The translations under genes and the position numbers were made by a program. 46,818 bases of DNA from a virus: positions 1 to 46,818 of the IMG/VR virus record IMGVR_UViG_3300021964_000127. One strand, 5' to 3'. Numbering within the stretch: position 1 is the first letter of the stretch; each line of letters starts with the position of its first letter. The notes under the pieces are model-generated. The model was not told where the DNA came from, did not search any database, and was given only the letters and a program-made list of their open reading frames with translations. Shown here in pieces: positions 7,978 through 39,838 of this stretch.

Positions 7978-8070
7978 GAAGAAATTTGCGACAAATGTGT
8001 GGTAAACCGTCAAACGGCTGATAACGTGTTGCATATGGGAAAGAACAACGAACAGAAGGAGAACCCCATG
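7978..8070 (+). promoter_or_regulatory. Promoter-leader repeat, copy A
   Basis: First of seven near-identical elements. In transcription order it holds TGTGTGG, a 16-base spacer containing the inverted repeat CCGT-caa-ACGG, the -10-like block TGATAAC, an ATG at 8035 starting ATGGGAAAGAAC, and a strong Shine-Dalgarno AGAAGGAGA, ending at the gene ATG (8068). The distance between the two ATGs is 33 nt and they are in frame. It is divergent from the tail gene that starts at 7825. Confidence 0.85.
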
Positions 8071-8229
8071 AAACTCAACATCGACAAACTTCAGAACGAT
8101 CTCATCGCATACGCGATGATGGCGAACCAGAGCGACATGATGCCAAAGGCGCATATGGATCGCGCTCTGCGTATCTGCCGCATCTTCAACCTCAAGTTCG
8201 AGGACGTATGCGAGGCGGTGAAGTCATGA
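8068..8229 (+). CDS. Small protein heading plus-strand cassette A
   Basis: This 53-aa helical protein (MKLNIDKLQNDL...) contains several Met residues and ends FEDVCEAVKS. I do not recognise it. It is the first gene behind promoter-leader copy A, preceded by AGAAGGAGA six bases before the ATG. An alternative in-frame start at 8035 would add eleven residues beginning MGKN. Its stop overlaps the next start in an ATGA junction, so it is translationally coupled to the rest of the cassette. Confidence 0.7.
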   Translation: MKLNIDKLQNDLIAYAMMANQSDMMPKAHMDRALRICRIFNLKFEDVCEAVKS

Positions 8230-8762
8230 GCAAGATTCGACGCAACCAGCAAACAGGCACACAGATCGAAGTCGGCACCGCAGAGGAGTTAGGTCTCGAC
8301 GACGAAGGCGGCGCATCCAAGTGGTACTGCGTCTGTCTCGAACACAGCGGGATTCTCGGAACCGAGACACGCAAACTCGCGAAGTCGTGGGCATCGAGTC
8401 CTCTTGACTGGTGCTTCGGTTGTTCAGAGAAAGAGAGCGACGAGCCGACCGAAGAGATCGAGCAGGCAGAGGTCGAGCCAGTCGCGATCGAGCAGTCACC
8501 AACCGGCGGTCTGATTCTGCCGTCAGGTCGCGCAGTCGAGATTGGCGACGAGATCACAGTGCTCGATCCGAAGTCAGACGAACGGCGACGCTACCGGCTC
8601 GTGCGAGTCGAGACAAACGGCGACGTGACCTGCTGGGGGTCGATCGACAAGAGCGGTCTCACACCGAACGGTTCGATGCGTACCTTCAAGGCAGATCGAG
8701 TCGTCGATATCAAACACAACAAGTCACGATCACGTTCGATCAGAGAGCAGGAGGACAACTGA
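8226..8762 (+). CDS. Cys-containing protein of unknown function
   Basis: The N-terminal half of this 178-aa protein has a 'WYCVCLEHSGIL' to 'WCFGCSE' arrangement (Cys pairs around residues 35 and 64), a probable zinc site like those in many small actinophage proteins. A Glu-rich linker follows. The C-terminal half reads like a small beta-barrel ('GDEITVLDPKSDERRRYRLV'), as in KOW or DUF-type nucleic-acid-binding folds. No catalytic motif is visible. It is coupled by ATGA to the gene before it. Confidence 0.65.
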   Translation: MSKIRRNQQTGTQIEVGTAEELGLDDEGGASKWYCVCLEHSGILGTETRKLAKSWASSPLDWCFGCSEKESDEPTEEIEQAEVEPVAIEQSPTGGLILPSGRAVEIGDEITVLDPKSDERRRYRLVRVETNGDVTCWGSIDKSGLTPNGSMRTFKADRVVDIKHNKSRSRSIREQEDN

Positions 8763-8763
8763 G

Positions 8764-8913
8764 ATGATCAAGATATGGGAATGGGACAAGCAGCCCTCGT
8801 TCGAGGAGTTCTGCAAGTTCTTTGGTTACGACCCGACCGATGAGTCGTACTGGGAGAACTACGGCGAATGGTCGTCCGAGAACTTCGACGACGAAGGGAA
8901 CCGACGCATATGA
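8764..8913 (+). CDS. Small acidic protein
   Basis: A 49-aa acidic, aromatic-rich peptide (MIKIWEWDKQPSFEEFCKFF...). It begins one base after the previous stop and overlaps the next gene by ATGA. I do not recognise it. Tight packing in the cassette and typical codon use support it as real. Confidence 0.6.
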   Translation: MIKIWEWDKQPSFEEFCKFFGYDPTDESYWENYGEWSSENFDDEGNRRI

Positions 8914-9107
8914 GCGCAGAGCCAACACCGATGCGACCTCACGTCACGGTCATCGACAACATCCGAAAGATTGACGAACGGCTACCAGAAGGTCAACTCT
9001 TGATCGAGCACTACGCGGACGGACAAGTCCACGTCGCCTTTCGAGAGCAGCGATGGCATACATGGTCGAAGGGTGTCTGGACTATCGACGACACACCTAC
9101 GATCTAA
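8910..9107 (+). CDS. Hypothetical small protein
   Basis: A 65-aa protein starting MSAEPTPMRPHVTVIDNI. The C-terminal half alternates hydrophobic and charged residues with several Trp and His ('VHVAFREQRWHTWSKG'), suggesting a small beta domain. The start overlaps the preceding stop (ATGA). Family not recognised. Confidence 0.6.
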   Translation: MSAEPTPMRPHVTVIDNIRKIDERLPEGQLLIEHYADGQVHVAFREQRWHTWSKGVWTIDDTPTI

Positions 9108-9145
9108 CCGACGTTGCGTCCGATAACATTTCGCTAGGAGACATT

Positions 9146-9328
9146 ATGTCAACCATCATCGAACGGCTCAGGTCGAGGCATCGAGTAGATACCTCGGACG
9201 GACTTGCCGAGTTGCTAGAGGAAGCGGCTCGGGAGATCGAGCGACTCCGTATCGAAGTCGGCGAACTCGAACAGCAAGTCAACGTCAACCGTCCTTACTC
9301 TTCCGCGGAGTGGTCGAACGATTCCTGA
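9146..9328 (+). CDS. Small coiled-coil protein
   Basis: A 60-aa protein with a clear heptad-like stretch ('AELLEEAAREIERLRIEVGE') that should form a coiled coil. It has its own Shine-Dalgarno (TAGGAG) upstream of the ATG and sits 38 bases after the previous gene. It could dimerise or act as an adaptor; function unknown. Confidence 0.6.
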   Translation: MSTIIERLRSRHRVDTSDGLAELLEEAAREIERLRIEVGELEQQVNVNRPYSSAEWSNDS

Positions 9329-9346
9329 CCGAGAAAGGTCACAACA

Positions 9347-9979
9347 ATGTTTCAAGTTCTACGCAGTATGTGGGCGTTCGCCTGTACACTGATGATCGTC
9401 GTGAGCGGCTGGGCAGGAGCCTCCTTCCGGTTCTTTCCCAACTTACCTGAAGCCTCCAGCCCGGCTGCTCCGACACCCTCCACTTCGACACCAGTCGTCA
9501 AGTCTTTCAACCCGCTCTCGATTACGTCGCTGTCAGCAGACGAACACGACAGCGAGGTCGAGATACCGGCAGTGCCAAACCTGCCAGACGGGATAACTCT
9601 TGACCCGCACTTCGAGGGCTGGATCGAACCACGCTATGACCTACCACCGCTCGAAGGAATCGAGGACGCGCTCTGCGGAGAGTGGTGGCAACTCGCGATC
9701 GAAGTCGGCTGGGAACTCGACGACCTCGAAACACTCGACAGAATCATGTGGGCAGAGACACGATGCCAACCTGATCTTGTTTCGTCAACACACGACTACG
9801 GTCTCGTGCAGATCAACAGAGCCGTCTGGCGCGAGTTCGTCGAGGCGCGCGGCTACACGATGAATGATCTGCTCGACGCTCGAACCGGCTTGATGTTCGG
9901 TCTGCTCGTCGCCGAGGAAGCAGAAGCGATGGGATGGTGCCGCTATCAGCCGTGGTACAGGTCGGGCGCGTGGTGCTAG
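9347..9979 (+). CDS. Secreted lysozyme-like lytic transglycosylase
   Basis: This 210-aa protein has an N-terminal hydrophobic segment (residues about 8-25, 'MWAFACTLMIVVSGWAG'), a Pro/Ser/Thr linker (36-60), and a C-terminal domain of soluble-lytic-transglycosylase type. The likely catalytic Glu is E137 in 'IMWAETRCQPD', followed by the family signature 'DYGLVQINRAVW' (150-161). It would cut the glycan strand of peptidoglycan from outside the membrane. It is the last gene of plus-strand cassette A, convergent with the neck genes, and separate from the endolysin at 42 kb. It could be a moron-type wall-remodelling enzyme or an auxiliary lysin. Cys110, Cys140 and Cys210 might form a disulphide. 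Confidence 0.8.
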   Translation: MFQVLRSMWAFACTLMIVVSGWAGASFRFFPNLPEASSPAAPTPSTSTPVVKSFNPLSITSLSADEHDSEVEIPAVPNLPDGITLDPHFEGWIEPRYDLPPLEGIEDALCGEWWQLAIEVGWELDDLETLDRIMWAETRCQPDLVSSTHDYGLVQINRAVWREFVEARGYTMNDLLDARTGLMFGLLVAEEAEAMGWCRYQPWYRSGAWC

Positions 9980-10022
9980 AAGAAACCCGTTTGCGACGCT
10001 TAGACGGCGAAATAGCGGGCAA
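9980..10022. terminator. Possible weak bidirectional terminator between convergent genes
   Basis: The 43 bases between two convergent stops contain CCCG and CGGG arms separated by about 27 bases; read on the minus strand the right arm is followed by TTTCTTCT. The stem is short (4-5 bp), so this is only a weak candidate. Confidence 0.3.
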
Positions 10023-10214
10023 TTACGCTGACTGAGACGCGTTCTCTGCTGACTGGTTCGTCGATTTGCAGCGCGGGCAGCGAATCGACCACGGCGCGGT
10101 AACGAGTTCAGCGAGCAGTTTGCCGCATCCGGCACAGCGGACGTTCGTTCGAGTTCGTCGAGCGTGCTCTGGTTTCGAGCGCAGTTCGGCGTATGGATCA
10201 GCCGGAATCGTCAT
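10023..10214 (-). CDS. Com-like zinc finger protein
   Basis: A 63-aa protein whose core 'VRCAGCGKLLAELV' to 'IRCPRCKSTN' (Cys27, Cys30, Cys46, Cys49) closely follows the Mu Com family pattern, in which CxxCGKLLA is followed 12-15 residues later by I-CPRC-T-N. In phage Mu, Com is a zinc-containing RNA-binding activator of mom translation. Com-like fingers are also scattered in other phages without mom. Here it overlaps the start of the upstream neck gene (ATGA junction) and is the last gene before cassette A. No mom homologue was recognised, so the target is unknown. Confidence 0.7.
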   Translation of the reverse strand: MTIPADPYAELRSKPEHARRTRTNVRCAGCGKLLAELVTAPWSIRCPRCKSTNQSAENASQSA

Positions 10215-11902: not shown

Positions 11903-11909
11903 TTGTTAC

Positions 11910-12209: not shown

Positions 12210-12303
12210 GAGTAGTCCTTTCAATAAATAGCAAACGGTCGAGACCGGGACCGTGCGTCAGTTCCCAGTCCCGACCGTTAGCCGGAGGTGATCAGTTGTT
12301 AGG

Positions 12304-13251: not shown

Positions 13252-13269
13252 TGTTTCTTACCTCTCGGG

Positions 13270-13656: not shown

Positions 13657-13659
13657 TGG

Positions 13660-16586: not shown

Positions 16587-16678
16587 AAGGAATCTGCAAC
16601 AAATGTGTGGTAATGCCCGTGACGGCTGATAACGTGTTGCGTATGGGAAAGAACACAACACAGAAGGAGAACCCAATG
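16587..16678 (+). promoter_or_regulatory. Promoter-leader repeat, copy B
   Basis: Second element: TGTGTGG, 16-base spacer with inverted repeat CCGT-g-ACGG, TGATAAC, in-frame ATG at 16643 (ATGGGAAAGAAC), AGAAGGAGA, then the gene ATG at 16676. The palindrome variant (CCCGTGACGG) is shared with copy G at 39.8 kb. It is divergent from the gene starting at 16502. Confidence 0.85.
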
Positions 16679-17020
16679 AACACAGCAACCGACACCATCA
16701 CAATCAACGGCACCGACTACGAGAAGGTTCGCATCACTTCTCTCAAGAAGGGCGATGTCGTTCTCGCTACTTACAACGGCGGCTCTGAATGGGGCGGTCG
16801 CCACCACGCTGGTGGTTACTGGTTTGAGACCGCCGAATACATCTTGACCGACGGCGACGAGCGTACCTACAACCGAGTCCAGCGTTGGGAAGTTGCAGAG
16901 CGAGACGCACGAGGCTTCGATGTGAAGCGGGCTAAGTCAGGAACATTTGCGAAGTACACCCGCGTCACCTTCGCAAACCATTTCGGTGTTCATCGTTTCG
17001 CCTACAAGGAGGTGAAGTGA
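16676..17020 (+). CDS. Hypothetical protein heading cassette B
   Basis: A 114-aa protein beginning MNTATDTITINGTDYEKV. Much of it is beta-rich with alternating hydrophobic and charged residues ('KKGDVVLATYNGGSEWGG', 'RVQRWEVAERDARGFDVKR'), suggesting a small barrel. The first gene after promoter-leader copy B; the upstream in-frame ATG at 16643 would add MGKNTTQKENP. Family not recognised. Confidence 0.7.
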   Translation: MNTATDTITINGTDYEKVRITSLKKGDVVLATYNGGSEWGGRHHAGGYWFETAEYILTDGDERTYNRVQRWEVAERDARGFDVKRAKSGTFAKYTRVTFANHFGVHRFAYKEVK

Positions 17021-18007: not shown

Positions 18008-18111
18008 TTGCCGATCTGTTCGCCGCAGCAGCAGTCGGGCTGCTCGCCTACTGCATACTCAAACTAGTCATCGTGATTGCCGATCTGACTGACAAGGAGA
18101 AGTCGAAATGA
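18004..18111 (+). CDS. Very small membrane protein
   Basis: A 35-aa peptide with one membrane helix ('LFAAAAVGLLAYCILKLVIV') and a charged C-terminus. It overlaps both neighbours by ATGA, which strongly suggests it is translated despite its length. Function unknown. Confidence 0.6.
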   Translation: MIADLFAAAAVGLLAYCILKLVIVIADLTDKEKSK

Positions 18112-18428
18112 GTTGGAAAGAGTTCGCCGCCTGTAAAGGGCTACCGACTGCGCTGTTCTTCCCAGAGAACGGGAAAGTGAGCAGCGAGATCATCGAGATG
18201 TGCGAGGACTGTTCGGTACAGATCGAATGTCTTGCGGACGCGTTCCGGTTCCCGTCGCCAGAAGATCACGGCATCCGTGGAGGCGTTACTGCTCGAACTC
18301 GACGAAAGATGCGGCGCACAGGAATCCCGATCGGGCTACCTCGTAAGCAAGTCAGCGTCGGATTCGACGACCACACGCCGATCTCTCTGCGATACGACTC
18401 GCACACCGAAAGGTATGAGCGGATATGA
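18108..18428 (+). CDS. WhiB-family iron-sulphur regulator (cassette B)
   Basis: A 106-aa WhiB-like protein. The four cluster-binding cysteines are C9, C32, C35 and C41 (pattern C-x22-CEDC-x5-C), followed by the family turn GIRGG at 55-59 and a basic region ('TARTRRKMRRTG'). WhiB proteins bind a 4Fe-4S cluster and usually interact with region 4 of the primary sigma factor. Phage copies can shut off or redirect host transcription. It lies in an accessory cassette with tightly overlapping genes. A second, unrelated-looking WhiB is at 31.2 kb. Confidence 0.92.
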   Translation: MSWKEFAACKGLPTALFFPENGKVSSEIIEMCEDCSVQIECLADAFRFPSPEDHGIRGGVTARTRRKMRRTGIPIGLPRKQVSVGFDDHTPISLRYDSHTERYERI

Positions 18429-18892
18429 GCGACGACCCGAACCTCTTCGACCTCCCAATGCTCCCGTACGCTGGCACATCCGGGTTTGCAGGCTCTACCT
18501 CCAGCGAGGAGCGTGCGCGGCGCGACGACGCAAATGGGACGACTACGCGGCGACAGAGACAAGTGCTTGACCATCTCGCTCGACAAGGCGTGTACGGCGC
18601 AACGTGGAAAGACATCGCCTCGTGGTTCGACTGGCATCACGGGCAAGCGTCAGGCGCGCTATCTGTCCTCCACAAGACAGACGTGATCGCTCGACTCGCA
18701 GAACGTCGAGACCGATGCGCGATCTATGTCTTGCCGCGATTCGTTGACGGTCGAGAGATCGACACCTACAAGCGAAACACGACACGAACGAAAGCGCGTG
18801 CTGATCTCGTCGAGATTCTCGCGATGCTCGAACGCGGTCGCGCGCATCAAGCAACAGAGTTCGTCGAGGCGTTACTGCAACACGAGTATTAG
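18425..18892 (+). CDS. Winged-helix DNA-binding protein
   Basis: A 155-aa protein with an N-terminal disordered part and a helix-turn-helix/winged-helix core: 'TTRRQRQVLDHLARQGVYG', 'TWKDIASWFDWHHGQASGAL', then 'RCAIYVLPRFVDGRE'. This pattern is common in actinophage HTH proteins. The C-terminal helix ('DLVEILAMLERGRAHQATEF') may dimerise. It starts inside the whiB stop (ATGA), so the two regulators are co-expressed. Its stop codon overlaps the convergent protease stop by four bases. Confidence 0.75.
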   Translation: MSDDPNLFDLPMLPYAGTSGFAGSTSSEERARRDDANGTTTRRQRQVLDHLARQGVYGATWKDIASWFDWHHGQASGALSVLHKTDVIARLAERRDRCAIYVLPRFVDGREIDTYKRNTTRTKARADLVEILAMLERGRAHQATEFVEALLQHEY

Positions 18893-20346
18893 ACAGTTGC
18901 CTCAACTGGCAGGTCGGCTTCGACTCGACGCGCTGACCCGCCGATCGAATAGCCACGCAACTGTCCAGCCTTCACCATCTCCCATGCCCACGGCTCCCAG
19001 ACGACTCCGAGGAACGGCGTGTCTGCCGGGAACTGGTATCTGGTGACACCCTGATTAGGCACTGTCAGTTCTGCTTCGAGCGGGAACGGCATCGTCATCA
19101 GTTCGACCATCTCGCCAGCAGGCTTGTCTGAGTGCTGAAGGTAGATCGTGCGGTCGCCTTTGCGTACCCATTCCCACATCGCACTCTGGAGAGTTTCCGT
19201 GTCGGTGAACTCGCCGTGCGCGTCCTCGCGGTCTGGCACATACGCAGGACCTAGCGTGTAGCGGTGCTCTGCTGCTTTCGAGACGAACCCAGAATCGAGT
19301 CGAGTCAGCATCGCTTGCTTGACAGTGTTCGGGATTGCGTATGGCTCTGCGAGTTCGTGCATGACTTCGATCTCGTCTGAGATCAAGTCGTGAATCTCTT
19401 TGACTGCTGGCGTGACGACTTCGATGTTGTGTGACGCGTCGTGGAACTCGATCAGCATCTCAAGTGTTGCGGGTTCGAGCGTCGCCTTGCTGAACTGCTC
19501 TATCTGTTGGAGGCGCGCCTCGGCTGCGTCACGCTCGGCATAGCAACCGAACGCACGACCGGTTTCTGAGTAGACACAGAACTGGTCATCCTCGACGCGT
19601 ATCTCACGCTGCACCATACGACGGTCGTTGTCGCTGCCACGAGCCATGTCGTCGCTGCCCATAGACCTATCTTGATCGCTGCTCTCATCGTTGGTCTCCT
19701 CTGCTGCTGGTGACAGCGCGTCTGCTGCTCGATCCATCAGAGCGAGGATGCGGCGTGCGAGATCACGCGAGTCGGGGAACATCACGAGTCCGAGGTATGC
19801 CTGCGCGAGACAGCCAACGGGGTTGGCATATCCCATGTCGTGCGCCTTTGTTGTTTCGCGGTCTGCGCCGACCATGATCGTTTGCAGATCGTGAACGAGT
19901 CCCATCGTCTCGTCGGCGAACTCGACGCGCCCCATACGGACAAAGGACTGGTATGCGTCGAGGAGTTCATCGAGCGGGTCGATTGCTCCGTCGTCGTCCT
20001 TCGTTTCGTAGTTGTAGCCTTTGAGCACTTCGGGTGCGTCCTCTCTTGATTCGTCTGGGTGTGTCTTGAGCCACGCGGCAAGCACGCGGCGTTTGACGCC
20101 CGCTAGGTCGTCTGCGGGAATCTCGACACGGTTGCCTCGAAACCCTGCGGGTGATAGTGCGGCGACAGCGCGTCCGATTTGCTCAGCCGTCTCTTGCGCT
20201 CTGAGCGAGTCCCAGAGGCGGAGTTTCCAAGTGGATGGTGAGTCCTCGTCCGGCACATAGGCGAACGCCTCTGCTGGGAAGTCCTCTCCGTCCTCGCGCT
20301 TTGTAGCCACACCTCGAACAGTAGCAGTCCGCCTACCGGCAACCAT
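18889..20346 (-). CDS. Prohead maturation protease, XkdF-like
   Basis: A protein of about 485 aa. The C-terminal 130 residues ('KAAEHRYTLGPAYVPDREDA', 'TIYLQHSDKPAGEMVEL', 'DTPFLGVVWEPWAWEMVKAG', 'LRGYSIGGSARR') match the XkdF-type phage serine protease pattern, including the H-x-D/S elements and the final G-YSI-G-A-R block. The N-terminal 350 residues vary, with a DnaJ-like or helical region and the stretch 'VEDDQFCVYSETGRAFGCYA'. It should cleave the scaffold and capsid during head maturation. The first ATG is at 20346; a TTG further up overlaps promoter copy C. It converges with the HTH gene, with overlapping stops. Confidence 0.8.
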   Translation of the reverse strand: MVAGRRTATVRGVATKREDGEDFPAEAFAYVPDEDSPSTWKLRLWDSLRAQETAEQIGRAVAALSPAGFRGNRVEIPADDLAGVKRRVLAAWLKTHPDESREDAPEVLKGYNYETKDDDGAIDPLDELLDAYQSFVRMGRVEFADETMGLVHDLQTIMVGADRETTKAHDMGYANPVGCLAQAYLGLVMFPDSRDLARRILALMDRAADALSPAAEETNDESSDQDRSMGSDDMARGSDNDRRMVQREIRVEDDQFCVYSETGRAFGCYAERDAAEARLQQIEQFSKATLEPATLEMLIEFHDASHNIEVVTPAVKEIHDLISDEIEVMHELAEPYAIPNTVKQAMLTRLDSGFVSKAAEHRYTLGPAYVPDREDAHGEFTDTETLQSAMWEWVRKGDRTIYLQHSDKPAGEMVELMTMPFPLEAELTVPNQGVTRYQFPADTPFLGVVWEPWAWEMVKAGQLRGYSIGGSARRVEADLPVEATV

Positions 20347-20365
20347 TAGAGGTAATAGATACGCC

Positions 20366-20453
20366 AGTTTGTCAGTAGATGTGGGATATTGCCCCAAACG
20401 GCTGATAACTTGTGGCTATGGGAAAGAACAGCAACCAGAAGGAGAACCAGATG
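20366..20453 (+). promoter_or_regulatory. Promoter-leader repeat, copy C
   Basis: Third element, slightly diverged on its left (GATGTGGGATATT in place of TGTGTGGTAAT), with CAAACGGC, TGATAAC, an in-frame ATG at 20418 (ATGGGAAAGAAC), AGAAGGAGA and the gene ATG at 20451. It overlaps the extreme 5' side of the divergent protease gene. Confidence 0.8.
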
Positions 20454-21629
20454 AACACGATCACTCGCACATACACGACCGCGACAGACGCAGCAATCGT
20501 CGTCGCCAAAGTCAACGCCCTCGCAGGTCGAGCAGCCAAGAAGGGAATCGCGACCGACCTCGCCGCGAACGTCGAGACACTCGAAGAGTTCAACGAGATC
20601 ACCGGCGCACCAGAGACCGCCTACCGAGTCGCAGTTACGTTCACCGACCTCGTTCGATTCTCAGGCGGGTGGGTGCTCGTCGCAGTCGCAGACGCAACCG
20701 GCACAGACGAGCCGCTCATCTTTACGTTCGACGACGACACCACGATCGCCGAGAGTGTCGACATGCTTCGCTGCGATCACTGCGAGCGTCGCACACAGCG
20801 CAACAAGGTTCTCTTCGTTCGCAACGACGCAGGCGAGCAAGTTCAGGTTGGCGGTTCCTGCGCGAAGGACTTCCTCGGTCACGACCCGTTCTGGACAACC
20901 GTCCTCTCCGACGCACTCGACGAGCCAACCGAGATCGAGCGCGGCACCGGCAAGATCGAGTTCCCGACCGTCATCGTTCTCGAAGCAGCGATTGAGGCGA
21001 ACCGCCTCGGCTACGTCAAGAAGGGCAGCGAGTTCGGCACTCCGACCCGCTCGATCGTCGAGGCGATGCTGAGCGGCAAGTTCTGGAACAGCAAAGAGTT
21101 CGCAGACGTTCGCAACGAACTCGCGCAGGCTCCCGCCGCGACCGTCACCGTCGCACAGGTTCTCGACTTCATGCGCGATCAGGACGGCGAGTTCGGACTC
21201 AACCTTCGCCGCATCGCCGATAGCGAATACATCGGAGTCAAGGCTCTTGGTCTCGCTTGCTACGCACCGGCAGGCGCAACCGACCACCGAGCCAAGATGC
21301 AAGAGCGCGCCGCACGCCTCGCCGCGCAAGAGGCATCACGCGCAGACGCAACGCCTTGCCCGACAGGAAAGGTCGAGATCGAAGGCGAGTGCCTCACGAT
21401 CCGCGAGACTCACAGCGAGTACGGTTCCTGCTGGAAGATGCGAGTGCTCACCGACGCAGGCTGGGCAGCGTGGGGAACTATCCCACGAGCAATCGACGAT
21501 GTCGAGGTCGGCGACCGCGTTCGGTTCACCGCGACAATCACCCCAAGCAACGACGACAACCTGTTTGGTTTCTACAAGCGTCCGACCCGCCCAGAGATCA
21601 TCGAGCGCGCTCAGGCTCCTTCATCCTGA
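20451..21629 (+). CDS. Large cassette C protein with Cys-rich 'VGGSC-DFLG' domain
   Basis: A 392-aa protein starting MNTITRTYTTATDAAIVV. Around residues 108-145 is a metal-binding module 'RCDHCERRTQRNKVLFVRND' followed by 'VQVGGSCAKDFLGHDPF'. This motif is found in many phage and plasmid proteins of unknown function. A C-terminal 80-residue domain ('EGECLTIRETHSEYGSCWKM', 'DDVEVGDRVRFTATITPS') resembles an OB-fold-like nucleic-acid-binding barrel. It is the only gene of cassette C. A role in handling RNA or single-stranded DNA is possible, but no catalytic motif was found. Confidence 0.7.
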   Translation: MNTITRTYTTATDAAIVVAKVNALAGRAAKKGIATDLAANVETLEEFNEITGAPETAYRVAVTFTDLVRFSGGWVLVAVADATGTDEPLIFTFDDDTTIAESVDMLRCDHCERRTQRNKVLFVRNDAGEQVQVGGSCAKDFLGHDPFWTTVLSDALDEPTEIERGTGKIEFPTVIVLEAAIEANRLGYVKKGSEFGTPTRSIVEAMLSGKFWNSKEFADVRNELAQAPAATVTVAQVLDFMRDQDGEFGLNLRRIADSEYIGVKALGLACYAPAGATDHRAKMQERAARLAAQEASRADATPCPTGKVEIEGECLTIRETHSEYGSCWKMRVLTDAGWAAWGTIPRAIDDVEVGDRVRFTATITPSNDDNLFGFYKRPTRPEIIERAQAPSS

Positions 21630-26185: not shown

Positions 26186-26460
26186 CGCGTCACCTCGATC
26201 ATTCGGAGCGGGACACCGACGCGCATCTCGTAGGTGACGATTGCGTGGATGGGTGACTTGGCATTGACGATCTCTGCCATCGTGTGTGGCTGGCGGCGAT
26301 CGCCGATCGTGTAGATGTTCTGCGGGTACATCGTGTGCGTGAGTGCGATGCCGTGGTTGCTATTGAGCGACCAGCCATTGAAGCCTCGGTTGCTCCAAGT
26401 CCGGCGGATGCTCTTCTCGACGTTCTCGTGGACGTGCTCGACTGCGGTGAACCTGTTCAT
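26182..26460 (-). CDS. Hypothetical protein (cassette D)
   Basis: A 92-aa protein, MNRFTAVEHVHENVEKSI..., with 'TWSNRGFNGWSLNSNHGIAL' and 'VTYEMRVGVPLRMIEVTR'. The ATG overlaps the preceding stop by one base (TGATG); a GTG codon one position upstream is also possible. Not recognised. Confidence 0.6.
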   Translation of the reverse strand: MNRFTAVEHVHENVEKSIRRTWSNRGFNGWSLNSNHGIALTHTMYPQNIYTIGDRRQPHTMAEIVNAKSPIHAIVTYEMRVGVPLRMIEVTR

Positions 26461-26759
26461 CACTTGACCTCGTAATAGTTTGCGATTGCTTCTCTAGCGC
26501 GGGCGAGAGCGCGGCGGTAGGACTTCTTGTCTGCGCGGAGTTCGGTGAAGTTGCTCTGGTAGTCGAGATCTTCGATCAACTCAACGAGTGCTCTGTAAGT
26601 GAAGAGGCTCGTGCCTGTGGTTGCGGTGCTCCGAACGCACTCGATGTGTGCGCCTTCGAAGGCGATGTGGTTGAAGCCGAGGTCGCCGTCCCACTTGTAG
26701 AGGCGAGCGGTGTGATCCATAAGAACTCGCTGTGAAATTGTTACTTCGATGGTGTCCAT
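26460..26759 (-). CDS. Hypothetical protein heading cassette D
   Basis: A 99-aa protein starting MDTIEVTISQRVLMDHTARL. The first half is likely beta-rich, the second helical and basic ('RADKKSYRRALARAREAI'). It is the first gene behind promoter-leader copy D, with AAAAGGAGA before the ATG and an in-frame upstream ATG 33 nt away. Not recognised. Confidence 0.65.
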   Translation of the reverse strand: MDTIEVTISQRVLMDHTARLYKWDGDLGFNHIAFEGAHIECVRSTATTGTSLFTYRALVELIEDLDYQSNFTELRADKKSYRRALARAREAIANYYEVK

Positions 26760-26848
26760 TGGGTTCTCCTTTTCGTTGGTGTTCTTTCCCATAACTCAAA
26801 GATACCAGCCGTTTGCGGCATTACCACACATTTGTTGAAGATTTCTCT
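26757..26848 (-). promoter_or_regulatory. Promoter-leader repeat, copy D
   Basis: Fourth element, on the minus strand between terminase and cassette D. It holds GAAATCTTCAACAAATG-type sequence upstream in slightly altered form, TGTGTGGTAATGCCGCAAAC, then GGTATCTTT at the -10 position instead of TGATAAC, ATG at 26792 (ATGGGAAAGAAC), AAAAGGAGA and the gene ATG at 26759. The spacer palindrome is GCCG-caaa-CGGC. Confidence 0.85.
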
Positions 26849-31555: not shown

Positions 31556-31819
31556 CTACGGCTCCAGTAGTTCTGACATCTCTTTGATGTAATCGTTGCT
31601 GTCGAAGCAGAACACCTTAGCCTTGTCGGGTGACACCATAAAGACATGCAGGCACGGGTCGTCGCCGTTCTCAAACTTCTCGTTGAACTCTTCCAAGAAG
31701 TCGTCAGTCATAGGCGGGTTGTGTTGCATACAGCCATACGTCAGCCACCCTTCGTTCAAGCCTTTCTCGTACCAGCGACCGAAATTGCAGCGCCGAAACA
31801 CGTCGAGCAGTTTCATCAT
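31556..31819 (-). CDS. Hypothetical protein
   Basis: An 87-aa acidic protein beginning MMKLLDVFRRCNFGRWYEKG, with several Cys/Met and 'DDPCLHVFMVSPDKAKVFCF'. It overlaps the sigma-like gene's stop (ATGA) and is the last gene of the ArdC operon. Not recognised. Confidence 0.6.
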   Translation of the reverse strand: MMKLLDVFRRCNFGRWYEKGLNEGWLTYGCMQHNPPMTDDFLEEFNEKFENGDDPCLHVFMVSPDKAKVFCFDSNDYIKEMSELLEP

Positions 31820-32214
31820 GGCAGTCTCCGAAACCATCGCCTGTTACGTCGTGCGGCTTCGAGCGTGACCGTGTGATCGCTGACATCTTCTCGCAGAGCG
31901 TTCAAGTCGTCACGCAAGACAGCGATCTCTGCCACCGCCTTCTCGATCATCGCGAGCGCAGTGAAGGTTTCTTCTTCTACGCGAGGCGTTGACTGAAGAT
32001 GATCGATGATGACCTGCGCGGCACTCTGCTCGATCCTGCGAACAGTCTCTAGGGTGGTCTTCATCTCCCACGCTGTCTCTTGTCGCGTGAGTGGTGTCTT
32101 AGTTTCCATGCCCCATCGGTATCGAACAACTTGACGCTGAACAGGGTCGAGTAGTTCGAGATGGTAGGGGTGCTTGATATCGGGTCGGTTGATAAGTGCT
32201 TTGCGTCCGCGCAT
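31816..32214 (-). CDS. Sigma-70 region-4-like transcription regulator
   Basis: A 132-aa protein. Residues about 20-75 ('LELLDPVQRQVVRYRWGMET', then 'TRQETAWEMKTTLETVRRIE', 'QSAAQVII') align with sigma-70 region 4.2, in which 'L---ER-V---R-G', 'T--EIG--L--S-E-VR-IE--A---L' forms the HTH that contacts the -35 element. There is no region 2, so it cannot be a full sigma factor. A C-terminal coiled coil ('MIEKAVAEIAVLRDDLNALR') follows. It could be an anti-sigma/appropriator-like co-factor or a promoter-specific activator. It lies in the early ArdC operon. Confidence 0.7.
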   Translation of the reverse strand: MRGRKALINRPDIKHPYHLELLDPVQRQVVRYRWGMETKTPLTRQETAWEMKTTLETVRRIEQSAAQVIIDHLQSTPRVEEETFTALAMIEKAVAEIAVLRDDLNALREDVSDHTVTLEAARRNRRWFRRLP

Positions 32215-32225: not shown

Positions 32226-32570
32226 TCAGGCGGTTGGGCTGAATGAATAGTTGTATTGAGAGTCAGACTGCTTACGCAGACGAACTCGTTTGTCAAGCCG
32301 CAACTCTGCGGCGATCGACCGACGAGCGTTTGCGAGAGTCGTAAATGCCTCTTGCCGCTCGCCTGTCACTGTGCGTTTGATCTGCACAGTCTCTGGGTGG
32401 TCAGGATCGCCGACCACGTTCTGTTGCACGACGCGCCTGTTCATAATCCATGCGCCTCCGGGCTTGTCTGTCTTGATGAGTTCCCACTCGATGTTCATGT
32501 GTTCTCCTTCTTCTGGTGGGGGGGGTGGTGGTGTCTGGTCGATGACCTTCACGAGTGATCTGACGCTCAC
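32226..32570 (-). CDS. Hypothetical protein with alternative starts
   Basis: The frame starts with a GTG overlapping the ArdC stop and reads VSVRSLVKVIDQT followed by a Pro run (114 aa in total). An internal ATG at 32498 (MNIEWELIKTDKPG) is preceded by AGAAGGAGAACAC, the same Shine-Dalgarno block as in the promoter-leader repeats, so a 90-aa form starting there is probably the main product. The C-terminal half is basic and Arg/Gln-rich ('ARRSIAAELRLDKRVRLRKQ'). Not recognised. Confidence 0.6.
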   Translation of the reverse strand: MSVRSLVKVIDQTPPPPPPEEGEHMNIEWELIKTDKPGGAWIMNRRVVQQNVVGDPDHPETVQIKRTVTGERQEAFTTLANARRSIAAELRLDKRVRLRKQSDSQYNYSFSPTA

Positions 32571-33442
32571 GACGCAACCTCCTCTCGCGTCGCGAGCACT
32601 GCGCGCTCGTCGATGAACTCGACTGCCTTCGATGCTTTCGAGGCGGCTGTCCAGAGTGCGCGGTAATCGTTCTTGAGGATGCTTACCCAATGGGCGAGGT
32701 ACTCGGCGTGATCGGGGCGTGGCTCTTCTTCGATGCCGAGCGTGGCGCAGAGCATCGCTGATCCGAGTTCTGCGACGAGTTCCTCTGCGGCGTATGCGTC
32801 GCTGCCGAACTTGTTCTTGAGGTCGCGGTTGAGGCGTGACTCGTTTCCTGTCCAGTGAACGAGTTCGTGAGCCAGCGTGCCGTAGTAGCCCTCGGCGGTC
32901 TTGAACATCTCGAAGTGTGGCATCGTGATCGAGTCGTCCGATGAGCGGTAGTAGGCGCGACCCTCGTCGCTGTGCTTGATCGTTGCGCCAACGCCGTTGA
33001 GGTAATCCTCTGCGCTTGCGATGCGGTCGTCCTCGCTGACATCTCCTGTCGGGGCTGACCAGCCGTCGACCTGCGTCGAGTTGAAGACTGTGAACACTGA
33101 CGGAATCATTCGACCGCACTGGTTGCAGATAACGTCGTCGCCGTGGTCGCGGCACTTCTTCTCGATCCACTTGATCAACTTGATGCCGGTCTCGCCTTTG
33201 CGGACTTGAGCGTCGACGCTCTGCCACTGCTTGTAGGTTGCATAGAACTGAGAGCCGAAGTCCTCGCCGAGAACCCAGAGAGCGATCAGGTTGCCGCCCT
33301 TGTACTGCTTGCCGGTGACGGCGTTCGTTGCGACCGAGCCACCCTTCCAAGGCTTCTCCCACTTGCCGGTTGCGATTCCCGACTCGATGCTCTTGATGAT
33401 CTGTGCGGCGACGTTCTCCATCACCTCTGCTGACTTGTTCAT
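32567..33442 (-). CDS. ardC: ArdC-like antirestriction protein
   Basis: A 291-aa protein with the two parts of the ArdC family: an N-terminal ssDNA-binding domain ('IESGIATGKWEKPWKGGSVA', 'GGNLIALWVLGEDFGSQFYA', 'RKGETGIKLIKW') and a C-terminal metallopeptidase-like domain with HELVH at about 192-196 and 'EELVAELGSAML' at 220-231. ArdC proteins protect entering DNA from restriction. Being first behind promoter-leader copy E suggests early expression. The SD-preceded ATG is at 33442; a GTG 33 bases upstream is in frame, the only copy in which the upstream start is GTG. Confidence 0.9.
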   Translation of the reverse strand: MNKSAEVMENVAAQIIKSIESGIATGKWEKPWKGGSVATNAVTGKQYKGGNLIALWVLGEDFGSQFYATYKQWQSVDAQVRKGETGIKLIKWIEKKCRDHGDDVICNQCGRMIPSVFTVFNSTQVDGWSAPTGDVSEDDRIASAEDYLNGVGATIKHSDEGRAYYRSSDDSITMPHFEMFKTAEGYYGTLAHELVHWTGNESRLNRDLKNKFGSDAYAAEELVAELGSAMLCATLGIEEEPRPDHAEYLAHWVSILKNDYRALWTAASKASKAVEFIDERAVLATREEVAS

Positions 33443-33530
33443 TGTGGTCTCCTTCTTGTTGTTGTTCTTTCCCACGAACACAACGATATCAGCCGTTTGG
33501 TGGATTACCACACACAATGCGAAGATTTAT
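33440..33530 (-). promoter_or_regulatory. Promoter-leader repeat, copy E
   Basis: Fifth element, minus strand: GTGTGTGGTAATCCACCAAA, CGGCTGATATCG, then GTGGGAAAGAAC at 33475 (GTG instead of ATG), AGAAGGAGA and the ArdC ATG at 33442. The spacer palindrome is degenerate here. It heads the antirestriction/sigma-like operon. Confidence 0.85.
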
Positions 33531-34900: not shown

Positions 34901-34916
34901 TGTCTCCTTGTGGTGG

Positions 34917-35123
34917 TCAGGCGGGGCTGACAGACAGGACGAACGTTCCGGCGAATCCGGCGTGCTCTCGGACGACGACGACTTCGGCGCTGTCGTCGAG
35001 GCCAGCGACGGCTTCCTGCATCCATGTCGGGAATATGACTTGGCGGCTGCGGAACTGTGCGACCGTTTCGGTCGTGGTCGTGAGGCGGGTGCCTCGGGCG
35101 GTGGTGGTCTCGGTGGTGTTCAT
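34917..35123 (-). CDS. Small Thr-rich protein behind promoter F
   Basis: A 68-aa protein starting MNTTETTTARGTRLTTTTET, then a folded-looking part ('SRQVIFPTWMQEAVAGLDDS', 'VVVVREHAGFAGTFVLSVSP'). It follows promoter-leader copy F with AGAAGGAGA. An upstream in-frame ATG at 35156 would add MGKNTTQKENP. Not recognised. Confidence 0.65.
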   Translation of the reverse strand: MNTTETTTARGTRLTTTTETVAQFRSRQVIFPTWMQEAVAGLDDSAEVVVVREHAGFAGTFVLSVSPA

Positions 35124-35212
35124 TGGGTTCTCCTTCTGTGTTGTGTTCTTTCCCATATCCACAAGTTATCAGCCGTTTGCGGCATTATCACACATTTGTT
35201 GAAGATTTCTTC
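35121..35212 (-). promoter_or_regulatory. Promoter-leader repeat, copy F
   Basis: Sixth element, minus strand: GAAATCTTCAACAAATGTGT, GATAATGCCGCAAACGGC, TGATAAC, ATG at 35156 (ATGGGAAAGAAC), AGAAGGAGA and the gene ATG at 35123. The spacer palindrome is GCCG-caaa-CGGC. It is nearly identical to copy D over the upstream 40 bases and begins at the stop of the HNH gene. Confidence 0.85.
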
Positions 35213-37334: not shown

Positions 37335-37340
37335 TGTGTT

Positions 37341-37520: not shown

Positions 37521-37523
37521 CAC

Positions 37524-37790
37524 TCATTCCAGTATCGCTCGCACAGCGTCTGACGTATGCGAACCATTCCAGCCTTCGATGTAGGCAAGGACGAGTATCG
37601 AGCGAGGGACGACAACTTGAGTGTCGCCGTCCTCGTCGAACTGCGTGAAGATCACGACTGGTTCATCTTCGAGATAGCCGAACGATGCTGACCCGTCAGG
37701 ATTGCCCTCTATTTCGCCGTAGAGCAGTTCTGGCATCCACGAGGGTAGAACTACGCTCGAAACCGTGTTGCGGCTCTTAGAGACGCTCAT
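37524..37790 (-). CDS. Hypothetical acidic protein
   Basis: An 88-aa protein (MSVSKSRNTVSSVVLPSWMP...) with beta-rich, acidic sequence 'EDEPVVIFTQFDEDGDTQVV' and a C-terminal helix. It overlaps the recT stop by ATGA, and a very stable hairpin starts a few bases after its own stop. Not recognised. Confidence 0.6.
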   Translation of the reverse strand: MSVSKSRNTVSSVVLPSWMPELLYGEIEGNPDGSASFGYLEDEPVVIFTQFDEDGDTQVVVPRSILVLAYIEGWNGSHTSDAVRAILE

Positions 37791-38614
37791 AGGAGGGTCT
37801 CTGGGATCGGGTCGAGCGCGAGGCGTATCGACGTAACGCTGTCGGTGTCCGTGTCTCCTGTCATCGTGTCGTCGACGATCTCGCCGTCAACGATGTCGGC
37901 AGCGTCGATTCGATCGAGCAGAGCCTGCAACCTCGACTCGGTAAGTCCCTCGGACGGAGGTAGTTCGTCTTGCGATTCCCACCAGCGTCGAGCGTCGTCC
38001 TTGTCGCCGTCGCACATCGCGAGCACTCGCCGCTTTGCTTCTGCGATCGGAATGATCGGGTCAGCGAACGGGTCTACCTCGACCGGCGTGCCTGTCACGT
38101 CGACTTCGCCACCGATCTCTTCTGGCACATAGCCTGCGCCGAGAACAACGTCAGGGAACAGAACTCGACAGAGCGCGCTTACCGATCGCCACGTCAACAT
38201 TGAGTCGAGATACTGTGACCAGTTCTTCTTGCCTGCCAGCCCTGCGCGTTTCGCGTCGACTTCGCTGAACACTGCGCGGTGTTCGTCGCCGGTGTCTGCT
38301 CGACGACCGATGGCGATTGCCTGACGACCTTCGTCGCCGTCTGAGAGTTCGAGAGTGACAGAGTGTCCCGCTCGACGAACGAGACCGAGCATTGCTTCAG
38401 GTCGCAGGCTTGCCGTGCCTTCAATGACGTGGTAGTTCCGCAGGCTCGTCATCACGTCCCAGCCGAACGACAGACCGGCGAGACCGGCTGCGACGACATC
38501 GGGTGTTCTGTTTCGATATGCGGCAGGGATGATTCGAGATTCGGCGAGCACTTCGGCTTGCCGCAACATAAGGCTGAAACCAGCGTCAGTTGTAGGTACA
38601 AGTTCGTTTGACAT
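37787..38614 (-). CDS. recT: RecT-family single-strand annealing protein
   Basis: A 275-aa protein with RecT features: 'MLRQAEVLAESRIIPAAYRN', 'AGLAGLSFGWDVMTSLRNYH', 'VIEGTASLRPEAMLGLVRRA', and 'NWSQYLDSMLTWRSVSALCR' followed by 'PDVVLGAGYVPEEIGGEV'. RecT anneals complementary strands during phage recombination and replication. The ATG at 38614 is preceded by GGAGGAAAG. Two in-frame ATGs farther upstream lie in a tandem 18-base repeat. A partner exonuclease (RecE/AddB type) was not recognised nearby. The C-terminal 80 residues are acidic and less conserved. Confidence 0.85.
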   Translation of the reverse strand: MSNELVPTTDAGFSLMLRQAEVLAESRIIPAAYRNRTPDVVAAGLAGLSFGWDVMTSLRNYHVIEGTASLRPEAMLGLVRRAGHSVTLELSDGDEGRQAIAIGRRADTGDEHRAVFSEVDAKRAGLAGKKNWSQYLDSMLTWRSVSALCRVLFPDVVLGAGYVPEEIGGEVDVTGTPVEVDPFADPIIPIAEAKRRVLAMCDGDKDDARRWWESQDELPPSEGLTESRLQALLDRIDAADIVDGEIVDDTMTGDTDTDSVTSIRLALDPIPETLL

Positions 38615-38635
38615 TTCTTTCCTCCAGTTACTTGC

Positions 38636-38676
38636 TTGCGTGTTCATTATCTCTTGCGTGTTCATTATCTCTTGCG
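38636..38676. repeat. Tandem 18-bp repeat upstream of recT
   Basis: TTGCGTGTTCATTATCTC occurs twice in direct tandem at 38636-38653 and 38654-38671, followed by another TTGCG. On the minus strand each copy contains GATAAT, which looks like a -10 element, and TTCTGA lies 17 bases upstream of the first. It also creates duplicated in-frame ATGs (MNTQEI-MNTQAS). Confidence 0.6.
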
Positions 38677-38686
38677 GGTGTCACGG

Positions 38687-38944
38687 TCAGAACATAGGAG
38701 CCTCCTCGTCCGGTGTGCAGAGATCGACGAATGTCGTCTGCTCGATCTCGGGGTCACGCAACCGGCGCACGATCGGTGGTACGGGAACGACCGAACCACA
38801 CTGTCGGCAGTATGCGGTGCGCGGTGTTAGTTCTCGACGCAGACGATGCGGACAGTCTGCCTCGTCGTAGAACTCGATGCCGTCAGGTGTCGTTGCGTCG
38901 ACTTCGAGTTGCCGCCAAGTGTCGGGGTCTGGATATCCGCTCAC
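38687..38944 (-). CDS. Hypothetical Zn-finger protein
   Basis: An 85-aa protein starting with a GTG that overlaps the SprT-like stop. Contents: 'EADCPHRLRRELTPRTAYCR' with QCG next, giving C-P-H and CRQC elements that can bind zinc, and an acidic C-terminus. Position between recT and sprT suggests a role in early DNA metabolism, but it is not recognised. Confidence 0.6.
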   Translation of the reverse strand: MSGYPDPDTWRQLEVDATTPDGIEFYDEADCPHRLRRELTPRTAYCRQCGSVVPVPPIVRRLRDPEIEQTTFVDLCTPDEEAPMF

Positions 38945-39489
38945 GAGGCGACCTTCATATCGACCCAGACGATTCGACCGCGGCAGTGTTTGCACAGCCA
39001 GCGATTCTCACGCATCGTCTTTGACATCTTCCAACGATAGGCGAGACCTTCAGCGTGACAGTCAGAGCAGTTCGCCTTGTATCGACCCATCGGCATATCG
39101 CCTGCCTCGTCTGCGTCGGCGCAACGCTCGATGTGACGCATACCGAGTTCCTCGCACCACCACCGCCAGTCGGCACCGTGATCTGATCTGCCTCTGTCGA
39201 AGTAGTCGCAGGCATGAGCGAACTCGTGGAGGATCGTGTTCTCGATCGACTCGATGCTGGCGTGTTCGACGTAGAGCCTTGACAGACCGATCGAGCGTGT
39301 CTTTGGTCGAAAGACTCCGGCAGATCGTTTCATGTTTGATAGCCCGATCTCGACGAACTCAGGCAGGTGTCCTTCTGCTTCGAGCGTCAGGCGCACCTCC
39401 TTTGCGTAGGCGAAGATTGCCGCGTGCTTCGAGCGTCCGCCGTCGACGTAATCTGCGAGGGTGAAGTGGATAAGAGTTGAGCGGCTCAT
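38941..39489 (-). CDS. SprT-like metalloprotease with zinc ribbon
   Basis: A 182-aa protein with 'ENTILHEFAHACDYFDRG', giving HExxH at residues 88-92 and a further His in 'DHGADWRWWCEELG' at 104, as in the SprT/Spartan family. The C-terminal zinc ribbon has C141, C144, C166 and C169 ('NCSDCHAEG', 'WLCKHCRGR'). Cellular Spartan proteases digest DNA-protein crosslinks; phage SprT-like proteins are common but poorly studied. The ATG overlaps the previous stop (ATGA). Confidence 0.85.
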   Translation of the reverse strand: MSRSTLIHFTLADYVDGGRSKHAAIFAYAKEVRLTLEAEGHLPEFVEIGLSNMKRSAGVFRPKTRSIGLSRLYVEHASIESIENTILHEFAHACDYFDRGRSDHGADWRWWCEELGMRHIERCADADEAGDMPMGRYKANCSDCHAEGLAYRWKMSKTMRENRWLCKHCRGRIVWVDMKVAS

Positions 39490-39611
39490 CCGATCGCTCC
39501 TGTCGTGTAAGCGGCGCGGTGTTGCGCCCAAGCGAGAGAAACGTCTGCTGGGTCGCCGCCACCGTGAACCCAAGATGAACCGAACTCTGCGAACATCTCT
39601 GCTTCGTTCAC
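39486..39611 (-). CDS. Small hypothetical protein
   Basis: A 41-aa peptide (GTG start, MNEAEMFAEFGSSWVHGG...) overlapping both neighbours by ATGA/GTGA junctions. The C-terminal part 'ADVSLAWAQHRAAYTTGA' may be a short helix. Tight coupling argues that it is translated; no family recognised. Confidence 0.5.
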   Translation of the reverse strand: MNEAEMFAEFGSSWVHGGGDPADVSLAWAQHRAAYTTGAIG

Positions 39612-39748
39612 CACGCCTCGCAAGGCGCGTCCTTGTGCGGGTCGTGATCGACACAGCATCCGATCGTTCCTGCTTGGCAGGGCTCGTACTCCTGCCGATC
39701 AAAAGCGATCGTGACTTCGTCGAGTTGGCTGGTGCTGGGCTGGTTCAT
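39608..39748 (-). CDS. Small Cys-rich protein behind promoter G
   Basis: A 46-aa protein starting MNQPSTSQLDEVTIAFDRQE with four Cys in 'CQAGTIGCCVDHDPHKDAPC'. The Cys and His spacing could bind a metal. It is the first gene of the early operon behind promoter-leader copy G, with GAGAAGGAGA before the ATG. An in-frame upstream ATG at 39781 would add MGKNETEKENP. Confidence 0.6.
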   Translation of the reverse strand: MNQPSTSQLDEVTIAFDRQEYEPCQAGTIGCCVDHDPHKDAPCEAW

Positions 39749-39838
39749 GGGGTTCTCCTTCTCTGTTTCGTTCTTTCCCATATGCACACGTTATCAGCCG
39801 TCACGGGCATTACCACACACAAGGAGATATTTCTTTGC
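39746..39838 (-). promoter_or_regulatory. Promoter-leader repeat, copy G
   Basis: Seventh element, minus strand: GTGTGTGGTAATGCCCGTGA, CGGCTGATAACGTGTGCAT, ATG at 39781 (ATGGGAAAGAAC), GAGAAGGAGA and the gene ATG at 39748. The palindrome (CCGT-g-ACGG) is identical to that of copy B. It starts right after the lysis-region genes and heads the long early operon (SprT, RecT, initiator). Confidence 0.85.

Follow-up and report, generated by a model that had tools for sequence, protein, structure and literature searches.

Repeated leader units and 5'-terminal start codons in described systems

In cluster K mycobacteriophages, the start-associated sequence (SAS) is a 13-bp sequence, GGGATAGGAGCCC (with at most two deviations), located 3-9 nt before the gene start (PMC3203893; Adephagia, PMC11373665), and the extended SAS (ESAS) consists of imperfect inverted repeats of 15-17 bp that overlap a SigA-like promoter (PMC11373665). 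The elements analyzed here were found in a viral DNA stretch of 46,818 nt (IMG/VR record IMGVR_UViG_3300021964_000127), which we refer to as the window. The initial annotation had compared them to the SAS, and the likeness holds insofar as both are repeated in several copies per genome at the starts of unrelated non-structural genes, with a SigA-like promoter upstream and a conserved sequence that extends past the Shine-Dalgarno (SD) motif. Sequence and layout differ, however, and the window elements, which have GGGAAAGAAC-N9-AAGGAGA over 26 nt, are not SAS. Moreover, the listed sites in Anaya and Pixie are never directly preceded by an RTG (ATG or GTG), and in cluster K an RTG follows the -10 element only at chance level (1/13 sites), whereas the window elements have an in-frame RTG at the presumed transcription start. 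The presence of a promoter had also been put forward as a contrast to cluster K; this contrast no longer holds, because the extended SAS is now reported to contain SigA-like promoters (PMC11373665). When the elements were inspected by eye for an inverted repeat of the ESAS type, some copies could pair CCGT with ACGG, or GCCG with CGGC, in the spacer, and only the right arm ACGGCTG was conserved. A dyad operator between the -35 and -10 elements was rejected; the window copies conserve one arm only.

The combination of a leaderless and an SD-led start has been used in a test construct for mycobacterial leaderless mRNAs (Shell et al. 2015, PMC4633059), and its layout is the same as that found here; unlike the construct, the window layout occurs naturally, and it recurs as a standard unit, joined to an in-frame SD-led start, on numerous early genes across a phage family. 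In E. coli, a 5'-terminal AUG located upstream of an SD-led start can affect downstream expression (Beck et al. 2016, PMC4965119), and the window elements agree with this arrangement in their sequence layout. The E. coli cases were described as upstream ORFs in their own right, variable in length and found on single host genes, whereas here the upstream codon is in frame, phage-wide, and placed at a predicted mRNA end. In the Actinomycetia phage DSL-LC01 (OQ999401), a near-identical promoter with an A/C-rich SD leader is also repeated, there before dozens of genes, but the transcription start lacks an RTG and the frame rule does not apply (2/69 sites, 8.6 expected).

Seven promoter-leader elements in the window

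Exactly seven copies of the element were present in the window (chance expectation 0), at the positions given in the initial annotation: 7978, 16587 and 20366 on the plus strand, and 26848, 33530, 35212 and 39838 on the minus strand. A search of the window with GGGAAAGAAC-N4..16-AAGGAG gave three forward and four reverse matches, with a gap of 9 nt in every one, and the reversed-pattern control gave none. The same seven were retrieved without mismatches by TGTGKGRTAW-N8-ACGGCTGRTAWC (0.00 expected from shuffles). Permitting three mismatches added no further match in the window, and screening it for additional promoter-leader units revealed no eighth copy. By itself, TGTGTGGTAAT (two mismatches) occurred in the window at chance level (10 found versus 6.5 expected), and the significance of the elements rests on the combination of their parts. 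A DNA similarity search found no match among known phages, and an Rfam search gave none. The exact element was not found in other viral contigs among the matches listed, and none of at least 119 pattern-matching loci resembled it.

The layout is nearly invariant, as had been noted earlier: the distance from the TGTG box to the -10 hexamer is constant, and the block ATGGGAAAGAAC opens with ATG (GTG in one copy) 6 or 7 nt past a TAnnnT hexamer with the consensus TAWCKT. This distance agrees with the position expected for a leaderless start of Actinobacteria, a prediction from sequence. The -35 region (TGTGTGGTAAT) is unusual and not TTG-like. The left flank GAAATCTTC is present in most copies, but copy 3 (20366) lacks it and has TGTGGGATATT. 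In all seven copies the gene ATG follows the RTG (six ATG and one GTG) at a distance of exactly 33 nt, in the same frame and with no stop codon between them. The ATG/GTG of [AG]TGGGAAAGAAC thus shares the frame of the gene, and reads M/V-G-K-N-x-x-x-K-E-x-x-M. The 11 codons of the leader are A/C-rich and T-poor, and contain the SD motif.

The genes headed by the elements are unrelated and lie on both strands; among them are three cassettes on the plus strand that run against the direction of the late genes. The description of a repeated promoter-leader control unit was thus supported. Element 1 (7978..8070, plus strand) has its -35 region at 7996-8006 (TGTGTGGTAAA), the -10 hexamer TAACGT at 8022-8027, a predicted leaderless ATG at 8035, the SD AGAAGGAGA and the second ATG at 8068; its gene (8035..8229) encodes 64 aa from ATG 8035 or 53 aa from ATG 8068, and heads the plus-strand cassette at 8.0-10.0 kb. 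In element 2 (16587..16678, plus strand), the TGTG box (16604-16614) and the -10 hexamer TAACGT (16630-16635) are followed by a predicted leaderless ATG at 16643 and the second ATG at 16676. The gene behind it (16643..17020, plus strand; 125/114 aa) heads the cassette at 16.6-18.9 kb, which also contains a WhiB-like gene (18108-18428). Element 3 (20366..20453, plus strand) has the TGTG box TGTGGGATATT at 20380-20390, the -10 hexamer TAACTT at 20406-20411, a predicted leaderless ATG at 20418 and the second ATG at 20451. Its gene (20418..21629, plus strand; 403/392 aa; phrog_2319) encodes a protein whose C-terminal part is similar to ssDNA-binding proteins of Microbacterium/Arthrobacter phages.

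The remaining elements and their genes are on the minus strand. Element 4 (26757..26848) has its TGTG box at 26830-26820, the -10 hexamer TATCTT at 26804-26799, a predicted leaderless ATG at 26792 and the second ATG at 26759, and precedes a gene at 26460..26792 (110/99 aa). Element 5 (33440..33530; TGTG box 33514-33504; -10 hexamer TATCGT at 33488-33483) is the copy with GTGGGA in place of ATGGGA, with a predicted leaderless GTG at 33475 and the second ATG at 33442; its gene (32567..33475; 302/291 aa; ArdcN and MPTase-PolyVal; phrog_7245) encodes an ArdC-like anti-restriction protein. For element 6 (35121..35212), the TGTG box is at 35194-35184, the -10 hexamer TAACTT at 35168-35163, the predicted leaderless ATG at 35156 and the second ATG at 35123 (gene 34917..35156; 79/68 aa). 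Element 7 (39746..39838) comprises a TGTG box at 39819-39809, the -10 hexamer TAACGT at 39793-39788, a predicted leaderless ATG at 39781 and the second ATG at 39748 (gene 39608..39781; 57/46 aa).

Position and frame of the promoter-proximal start codon in relatives

Relatives of this virus, which is that of an actinobacterium, were found via the portal, capsid and RecT proteins (1.7 Mb in total). In these genomes, 54 promoter sites were picked by TTG-N20/21-TAnnnT, an SD and an ORF alone, with no ATG or GTG required. An RTG was located 5-8 nt after the -10 element in 44 of the 54 sites, against 6.8 expected, and 39 of these were in frame. The in-frame share was 36/37 at an offset of 6-7 nt and 3/7 at 5 nt. 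Leaders of different sequence had lengths of 24, 27, 30, 33, 36 and 39 nt, so that length changes proceeded in steps of three and preserved the frame. In 56 leaders there was no in-frame stop, versus 5 + 5 in the other two frames. The position of the RTG and the frame rule were thus established by computation, although naive significance is inflated because the units in relatives are akin. After merging near-identical units at 75% identity, 27 of 32 groups were wholly in frame; at 60% identity nearly all true units fell into one group, and a group-level test is then uninformative.

As in leaderless genes of Actinobacteria, an open frame extends from the 5' RTG through the gene in 7/7 window copies and 36/37 units in relatives. 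Downstream of the relatives' promoters, 60 open codons followed 75% of ATG and 56% of GTG triplets, compared to 16% of other triplets; TTG (4/29, 14%) and CTG (3/24, 13%) gave low shares, in line with the use of ATG and GTG alone in leaderless genes of that group.

Homologous units head several genes per phage in the relatives, where the same genes are found at other sites and in other orientations. The proposal of a phage-wide regulon with a travelling control unit was retained in part: the unit is repeated, also in relatives, but it is not carried unchanged with the cassettes, as a given gene is found in each phage with that phage's version of the unit. For three of the seven genes, orthologs begin directly at a promoter-proximal ATG with no SD. 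For element 3, orthologs in L128, L129, L207, L242, L264 and L280 have an ATG about 7 nt past the -10 element and no SD, and those in L132, L135, L136 and L138 have the dual form. Two orthologs of the element 6 gene (L153, L169) start purely leaderless by sequence layout, and so does the ortholog of the element 7 gene in L169. Leaderless starts appear widespread in this virus family. No ortholog was detected for the genes of elements 1 (in the fetched loci of relatives), 2 and 4.

It is important to mention that some members of the family depart from the frame rule. In L143/L208 a hairpin is present at the 5' terminus and leaders of 37-39 nt fall into every frame, and in L180/L257 the leaders carry an SD but lack an RTG at the transcription start. 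In control phages (cluster K, Waltz and others), the RTG after the -10 element was at chance level. For the element 3 gene, viruses that share its C-terminal domain alone had an RTG in 5/34 sites, none in frame, so that the rule appears not to extend beyond the portal/capsid-related family. Lineages do not share a conserved leader peptide, which thus probably has no function of its own. Finally, a stem between the 5' and 3' ends of the leader, in which RTGG[G/C] pairs with a [C/G]CCA immediately ahead of the second ATG, had at least 4 bp in 21 of 42 units, against 10.8 +- 2.0 in a cross-unit permutation that ignores relatedness; these stems are weak (-2 to -4.5 kcal/mol).

Interpretation of the two in-frame start codons

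The element is best explained as the standard early promoter-leader unit of what appears to be one actinobacterial virus family. We consider it very probable that the elements form a regulon of standard promoters, whose mRNAs would begin with a leaderless start codon in frame with an SD-led second start. RNA polymerase would recognise TAWCKT as the -10 element and start at the RTG 6-7 nt downstream, or within one base of it, so that the mRNA would begin with a start codon usable without a leader; all seven copies probably start the mRNA exactly on this codon, 11 codons ahead of the SD and second start. Ribosomes starting at the RTG would translate 11 codons and continue through the gene, so that the protein would carry a short polar extension at its N-terminus, and the SD motif with the second ATG would act as the conventional start of the same protein. 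We propose that actual use of the 5'-terminal codon is the reason why it has to keep the frame. What we infer from the sequences is the promoter, the site where transcription starts and that the RTG is used; homology of the window promoter with those of the relatives is suggested by the -10 element, RTG and leader, the window -35 region not being TTG-like.

The initial annotation had placed an extended -10 promoter at TGTGTGGTAAT, followed by an untranslated leader with a ribosome-binding site, as in the cluster K SAS/ESAS. TGTGTGGTAAT does match the TRTGn pattern, the SD and gene ATG are well placed, and untranslated leaders occur on repeated promoter-leader units of other actinobacterial phages (DSL-LC01, L358/L366). 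However, the relatives carry canonical TTG-17/18-TAnnnT promoters whose -10 element aligns with TAWCKT and not with TGTGTGGTAAT, which makes the TAnnnT hexamer 6-7 nt before RTGGGA the likelier -10 element. An untranslated leader would also account for neither the RTG enrichment nor its frame, neither of which is seen in cluster K. We therefore regard this reading as very unlikely; the leader is probably translated, the in-frame RTG having been overlooked. Even less credible is the suggestion that the in-frame pattern arose by accident through common descent, from repeated copying of a single ancestral unit whose leader had 33 nt. The window copies, all with 33 nt, do count as one event, and the units in relatives share ancestry, as the 60% clustering into one main group indicates, but leader lengths have shifted to 24, 27, 30, 36 and 39 nt, each time by a multiple of three, and RTGs located 5 nt past the -10 element have no frame preference.

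Two other explanations accept the 5'-terminal RTG and differ in what it does. That the leaderless start alone is used, the SD and second ATG being relics or chance occurrences in an A/G-rich leader, is suggested by the purely leaderless orthologs and the frequency of leaderless starts in the family. We find it unlikely, since many lineages whose leaders otherwise differ have preserved an SD at normal distance before the second ATG, and the SD is also kept in lineages without an RTG at the transcription start. Somewhat less plausible again is that the RTG is a standby or coupling site which recruits ribosomes to the SD-led start and yields hardly any extended protein, or none. In E. coli, 70S ribosomes bind to AUGs at the 5' end of SD-led mRNAs, and downstream expression of ptrB is affected by the AUG but not by translation of the upstream peptide (PMC4965119). 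Recruitment by itself requires no frame, yet 36/37 units with the RTG at the transcription start position are in frame and free of stops, and in some orthologs the RTG would be the sole start.

For the preferred reading, a leaderless start in frame with an SD-led start, it is less certain that both starts contribute to the protein, and also why both are kept: robust translation, ribosome recruitment or two protein forms may be the reason. A tentative and rather doubtful idea is that a whole virus family uses the two starts of its early genes as an inherent switch or fail-safe, which would sustain the synthesis of early proteins if canonical initiation fails in the course of infection and yield forms with different N-termini in changing ratio. 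As the rule is kept in relatives with different sequences, many early proteins of these viruses may have two translation starts. An apparently untranslated leader would become translated, gene starts would shift, and annotation would have a clear rule to look for: a gene caller choosing the SD-led ATG would miss the extension, or the reverse. The elements would represent a naturally occurring example of the two initiation modes serving a single frame, repeated many times in a phage family. Their layout opens to testing the question of when leaderless initiation is favoured and for what reason, and the orthologous genes that alternate between purely leaderless and dual starts provide a ready comparison series.

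A sigma-like protein encoded in the window

A small protein of 132 aa with a sigma-70 region 4 domain (PF04545, 31.1 bits versus a cutoff of 24.1) is encoded on the minus strand at 31816..32214. Its single-sequence structure prediction was poor (pLDDT 63) and was left out of the analysis. No region 2 match was detected in this protein, which showed a weak match to SigA region 4 chains; it may be considered a candidate factor for the atypical -35 region of the elements.

Putative promoter-leader elements in the window

The window, an entire IMG/VR virus record of 46,818 bases with 57% G+C, matched nothing at the DNA level in the phage collection searched. Its capsid, terminase, portal, tape measure and WhiB-like regulator genes suggest a tailed virus with an actinobacterial host, and the closest capsids of named phages, those of the Arthrobacter phages Waltz, Salgado and Laroye, are about 50% identical. 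Nearly all genes lie on the minus strand, with early and replication genes on the right and late genes on the left; the late block contains three plus-strand groups (8.0-10.0, 16.6-18.9 and 20.4-21.6 kb). The second group carries the WhiB-like gene (18108-18428, plus strand, downstream of element 2), and 35 of the related loci retrieved have homologs of it.

The seven elements proposed in the initial annotation at 7978, 16587 and 20366 (plus strand) and at 26848, 33530, 35212 and 39838 (minus strand) are present, far above chance, and a search of the window for an eighth copy found none. In order, each contains TGTGTGGTAAT or something very similar, a variable stretch of 7 bases, ACGGCTG[A/G], TAWCKT, 6-7 bases, [A/G]TGGGAAAGAAC, 9 bases, AAGGAGA, 5 bases and ATG. 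Every element precedes a different gene, four of which encode unknown proteins; the gene behind element 3 encodes a protein of 403 aa, similar in its C-terminal part to ssDNA-binding proteins of phages, that behind element 5 an ArdC-like anti-restriction protein, and that behind element 6 a 79-aa unknown protein with orthologs. In all seven copies, the RTG of [A/G]TGGGAAAGAAC (GTG in copy 5, ATG in the others) precedes the gene ATG by exactly 33 nt, in frame and stop-free, and the leader peptides of copies 1-7 are, in order, MGKNNEQKENPM, MGKNTTQKENPM, MGKNSNQKENQM, MGKNTNEKENPM, VGKNNNKKETTM, MGKNTTQKENPM and MGKNETEKENPM. Since these copies may represent one event duplicated seven times, relatives were needed to test the frame.

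Conservation of the reading frame in related viruses

Portal, RecT and capsid protein searches yielded about 165 loci (1.7 Mb). Many share the architecture of the window elements and differ in sequence (e.g. TTGACATTGGTGTTCGGTCGGAGTAAGGT-CTTGGAC-GTGGGAGAGATCACCGAGCGAAAGGAGACCCAC-ATG in locus L132), and units of the L132 type have canonical -35 and -10 elements, with the RTG at the expected transcription-start position. When the relatives were searched without a frame requirement, 41 of 45 units were in frame. A second search, in which the RTG was not required, combined a TTG-N20/21-TAnnnT promoter with a Shine-Dalgarno (SD)-led ORF within 75 nt and returned 54 sites; an RTG was present 5-8 nt after the -10 element at 44 of them (6.8 expected), 39 in frame. 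The frame was kept by 36 of 37 RTGs at 6-7 nt, the transcription-start distance, versus 3 of 7 at 5 nt. Leaders in the relatives measure 24, 27, 30, 33, 36 or 39 nt and contain 46% A and 5% T; 56 leaders held no in-frame stop, compared with ten stops across the other frames. The naive binomial P for the frame is 4e-14, which ignores relatedness among units; after clustering at 75%, 27 of 32 groups were wholly in frame (P 4e-9), and at 65%, 12 of 16 (P 8e-4), and at 60% the groups fuse, leaving the test empty.

All controls remained near chance: an RTG was found at 1 of 13 sites in the cluster K phages Anaya and Pixie, at 2 of 9 in Waltz (out of frame), at 0 of 2 in phage DSL-LC01 (2 of 69 using the -10 element alone), at 0 of 6 in two further phages, and at 5 of 34, none in frame, in 57 more viral loci whose similarity is limited to a C-terminal domain. 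The frame rule thus appears to belong to this virus family and is not a search artefact.

L208 and L143 have no in-frame RTG where transcription presumably begins; their leaders open there with a short hairpin (e.g. GTCAGC-ACGA-GCTGAC), and the frame rule does not constrain leader length. Pairing is possible, in the window elements and in the leaders of L129-L154, between the initial RTGG(G/C) and (C/G)CCA(Y) right before the second ATG; heads of the form xTGGC are matched by GCCA tails and xTGGG heads by CCCA tails. This pairing is above permutation, with relatedness among units uncontrolled.

Orthologs with a leaderless layout, and gene mobility

The strongest single line of evidence comes from orthologs of the 403-aa gene. 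In L128, L129, L207, L242/L243, L264 and L280, its ATG lies about 7 nt after the -10 element with no SD sequence, a purely leaderless layout (in L280, TTGTCAACTTGTGCCTATAATCTGGGC-ATGGAAGCAACTGCCACAACC...), and the dual form, with RTG and SD-led second ATG, occurs in the window, L132, L135, L136 and L138. The leaderless layout is also seen in the L153 and L169 orthologs of the element 6 and 7 genes. ArdC shows the dual form in two loci, L129 and L131, and elsewhere sits inside an operon. More generally, ATG or GTG opens long frames after the promoters of relatives far more often than other triplets.

The same genes also change place. In L129, L130, L132 and L136 the 403-aa gene is flanked by terminase and portal, in either orientation; in L137 it is just upstream of portal, and in the window and L207 it is next to the gene at 18889-20397 or its homolog. 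ArdC runs against the structural genes in L129, L131, L136, L137 and L141 and belongs to the early block in the window; L218 has no 8.0-10.0 kb group at the corresponding site. Each phage has a version of the unit that is its own, which suggests that copies become alike within a genome and are not carried along unchanged.

Proposed initiation mechanism

In mycobacteria, a 5'-end ATG or GTG is necessary and sufficient for leaderless initiation (PMC4633059). In the simplest model, the promoters would begin transcription on the RTG, ribosomes would initiate at this 5'-terminal codon, and the SD sequence and in-frame second ATG would supply an additional conventional start. mRNAs with a 5'-terminal AUG plus an SD-led start exist in E. 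coli, where the AUG can recruit ribosomes (PMC4965119); the frame rule argues that the RTG here is actually translated. Leaderless translation, the E. coli 5'-AUG mRNAs and the start-associated sequences (SAS/ESAS) of cluster K phages are described. No phage-wide in-frame leaderless plus SD unit was found in the open literature searched, which takes in only a minority of subscription journals.

Promoter recognition and other repeated units

Unlike most relatives, the window elements have no TTG at -35, and no TTG-17/18-TAnnnT unit before an SD-led ORF was found in the window. Sigma region 4 is the domain that reads -35 sequences. A 132-aa protein (31816-32214, minus strand) has a sigma-70 region 4 domain and no region 2 match, and distant versions are encoded in L130, L132 and L178. 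Our guess is that it reads TGTGTGG, which would make it a candidate specificity factor for promoters with the atypical -35 region.

DSL-LC01, a freshwater actinobacterial phage (L295; OQ999401, 20000-69999), has about 30 promoter-leader copies like TTCTAAAGATGTTATAATAGAATCAACAACAACGACGAAAGGACAA-ATG, each before a single gene, and L358 and L366 share a separate repeated set, TCCCTGTTGACGG...CGATAGATTACTTATAGAAGTTAACCAA...ACGGGAGACCAAGACG-ATG. The -35/-10 spacers of L244, L246, L278, L193, L196 and L199 appear to contain lineage-specific inverted repeats (e.g. CCCTAG-N6-CTAGGG), suggesting putative operators for phage-specific regulators.
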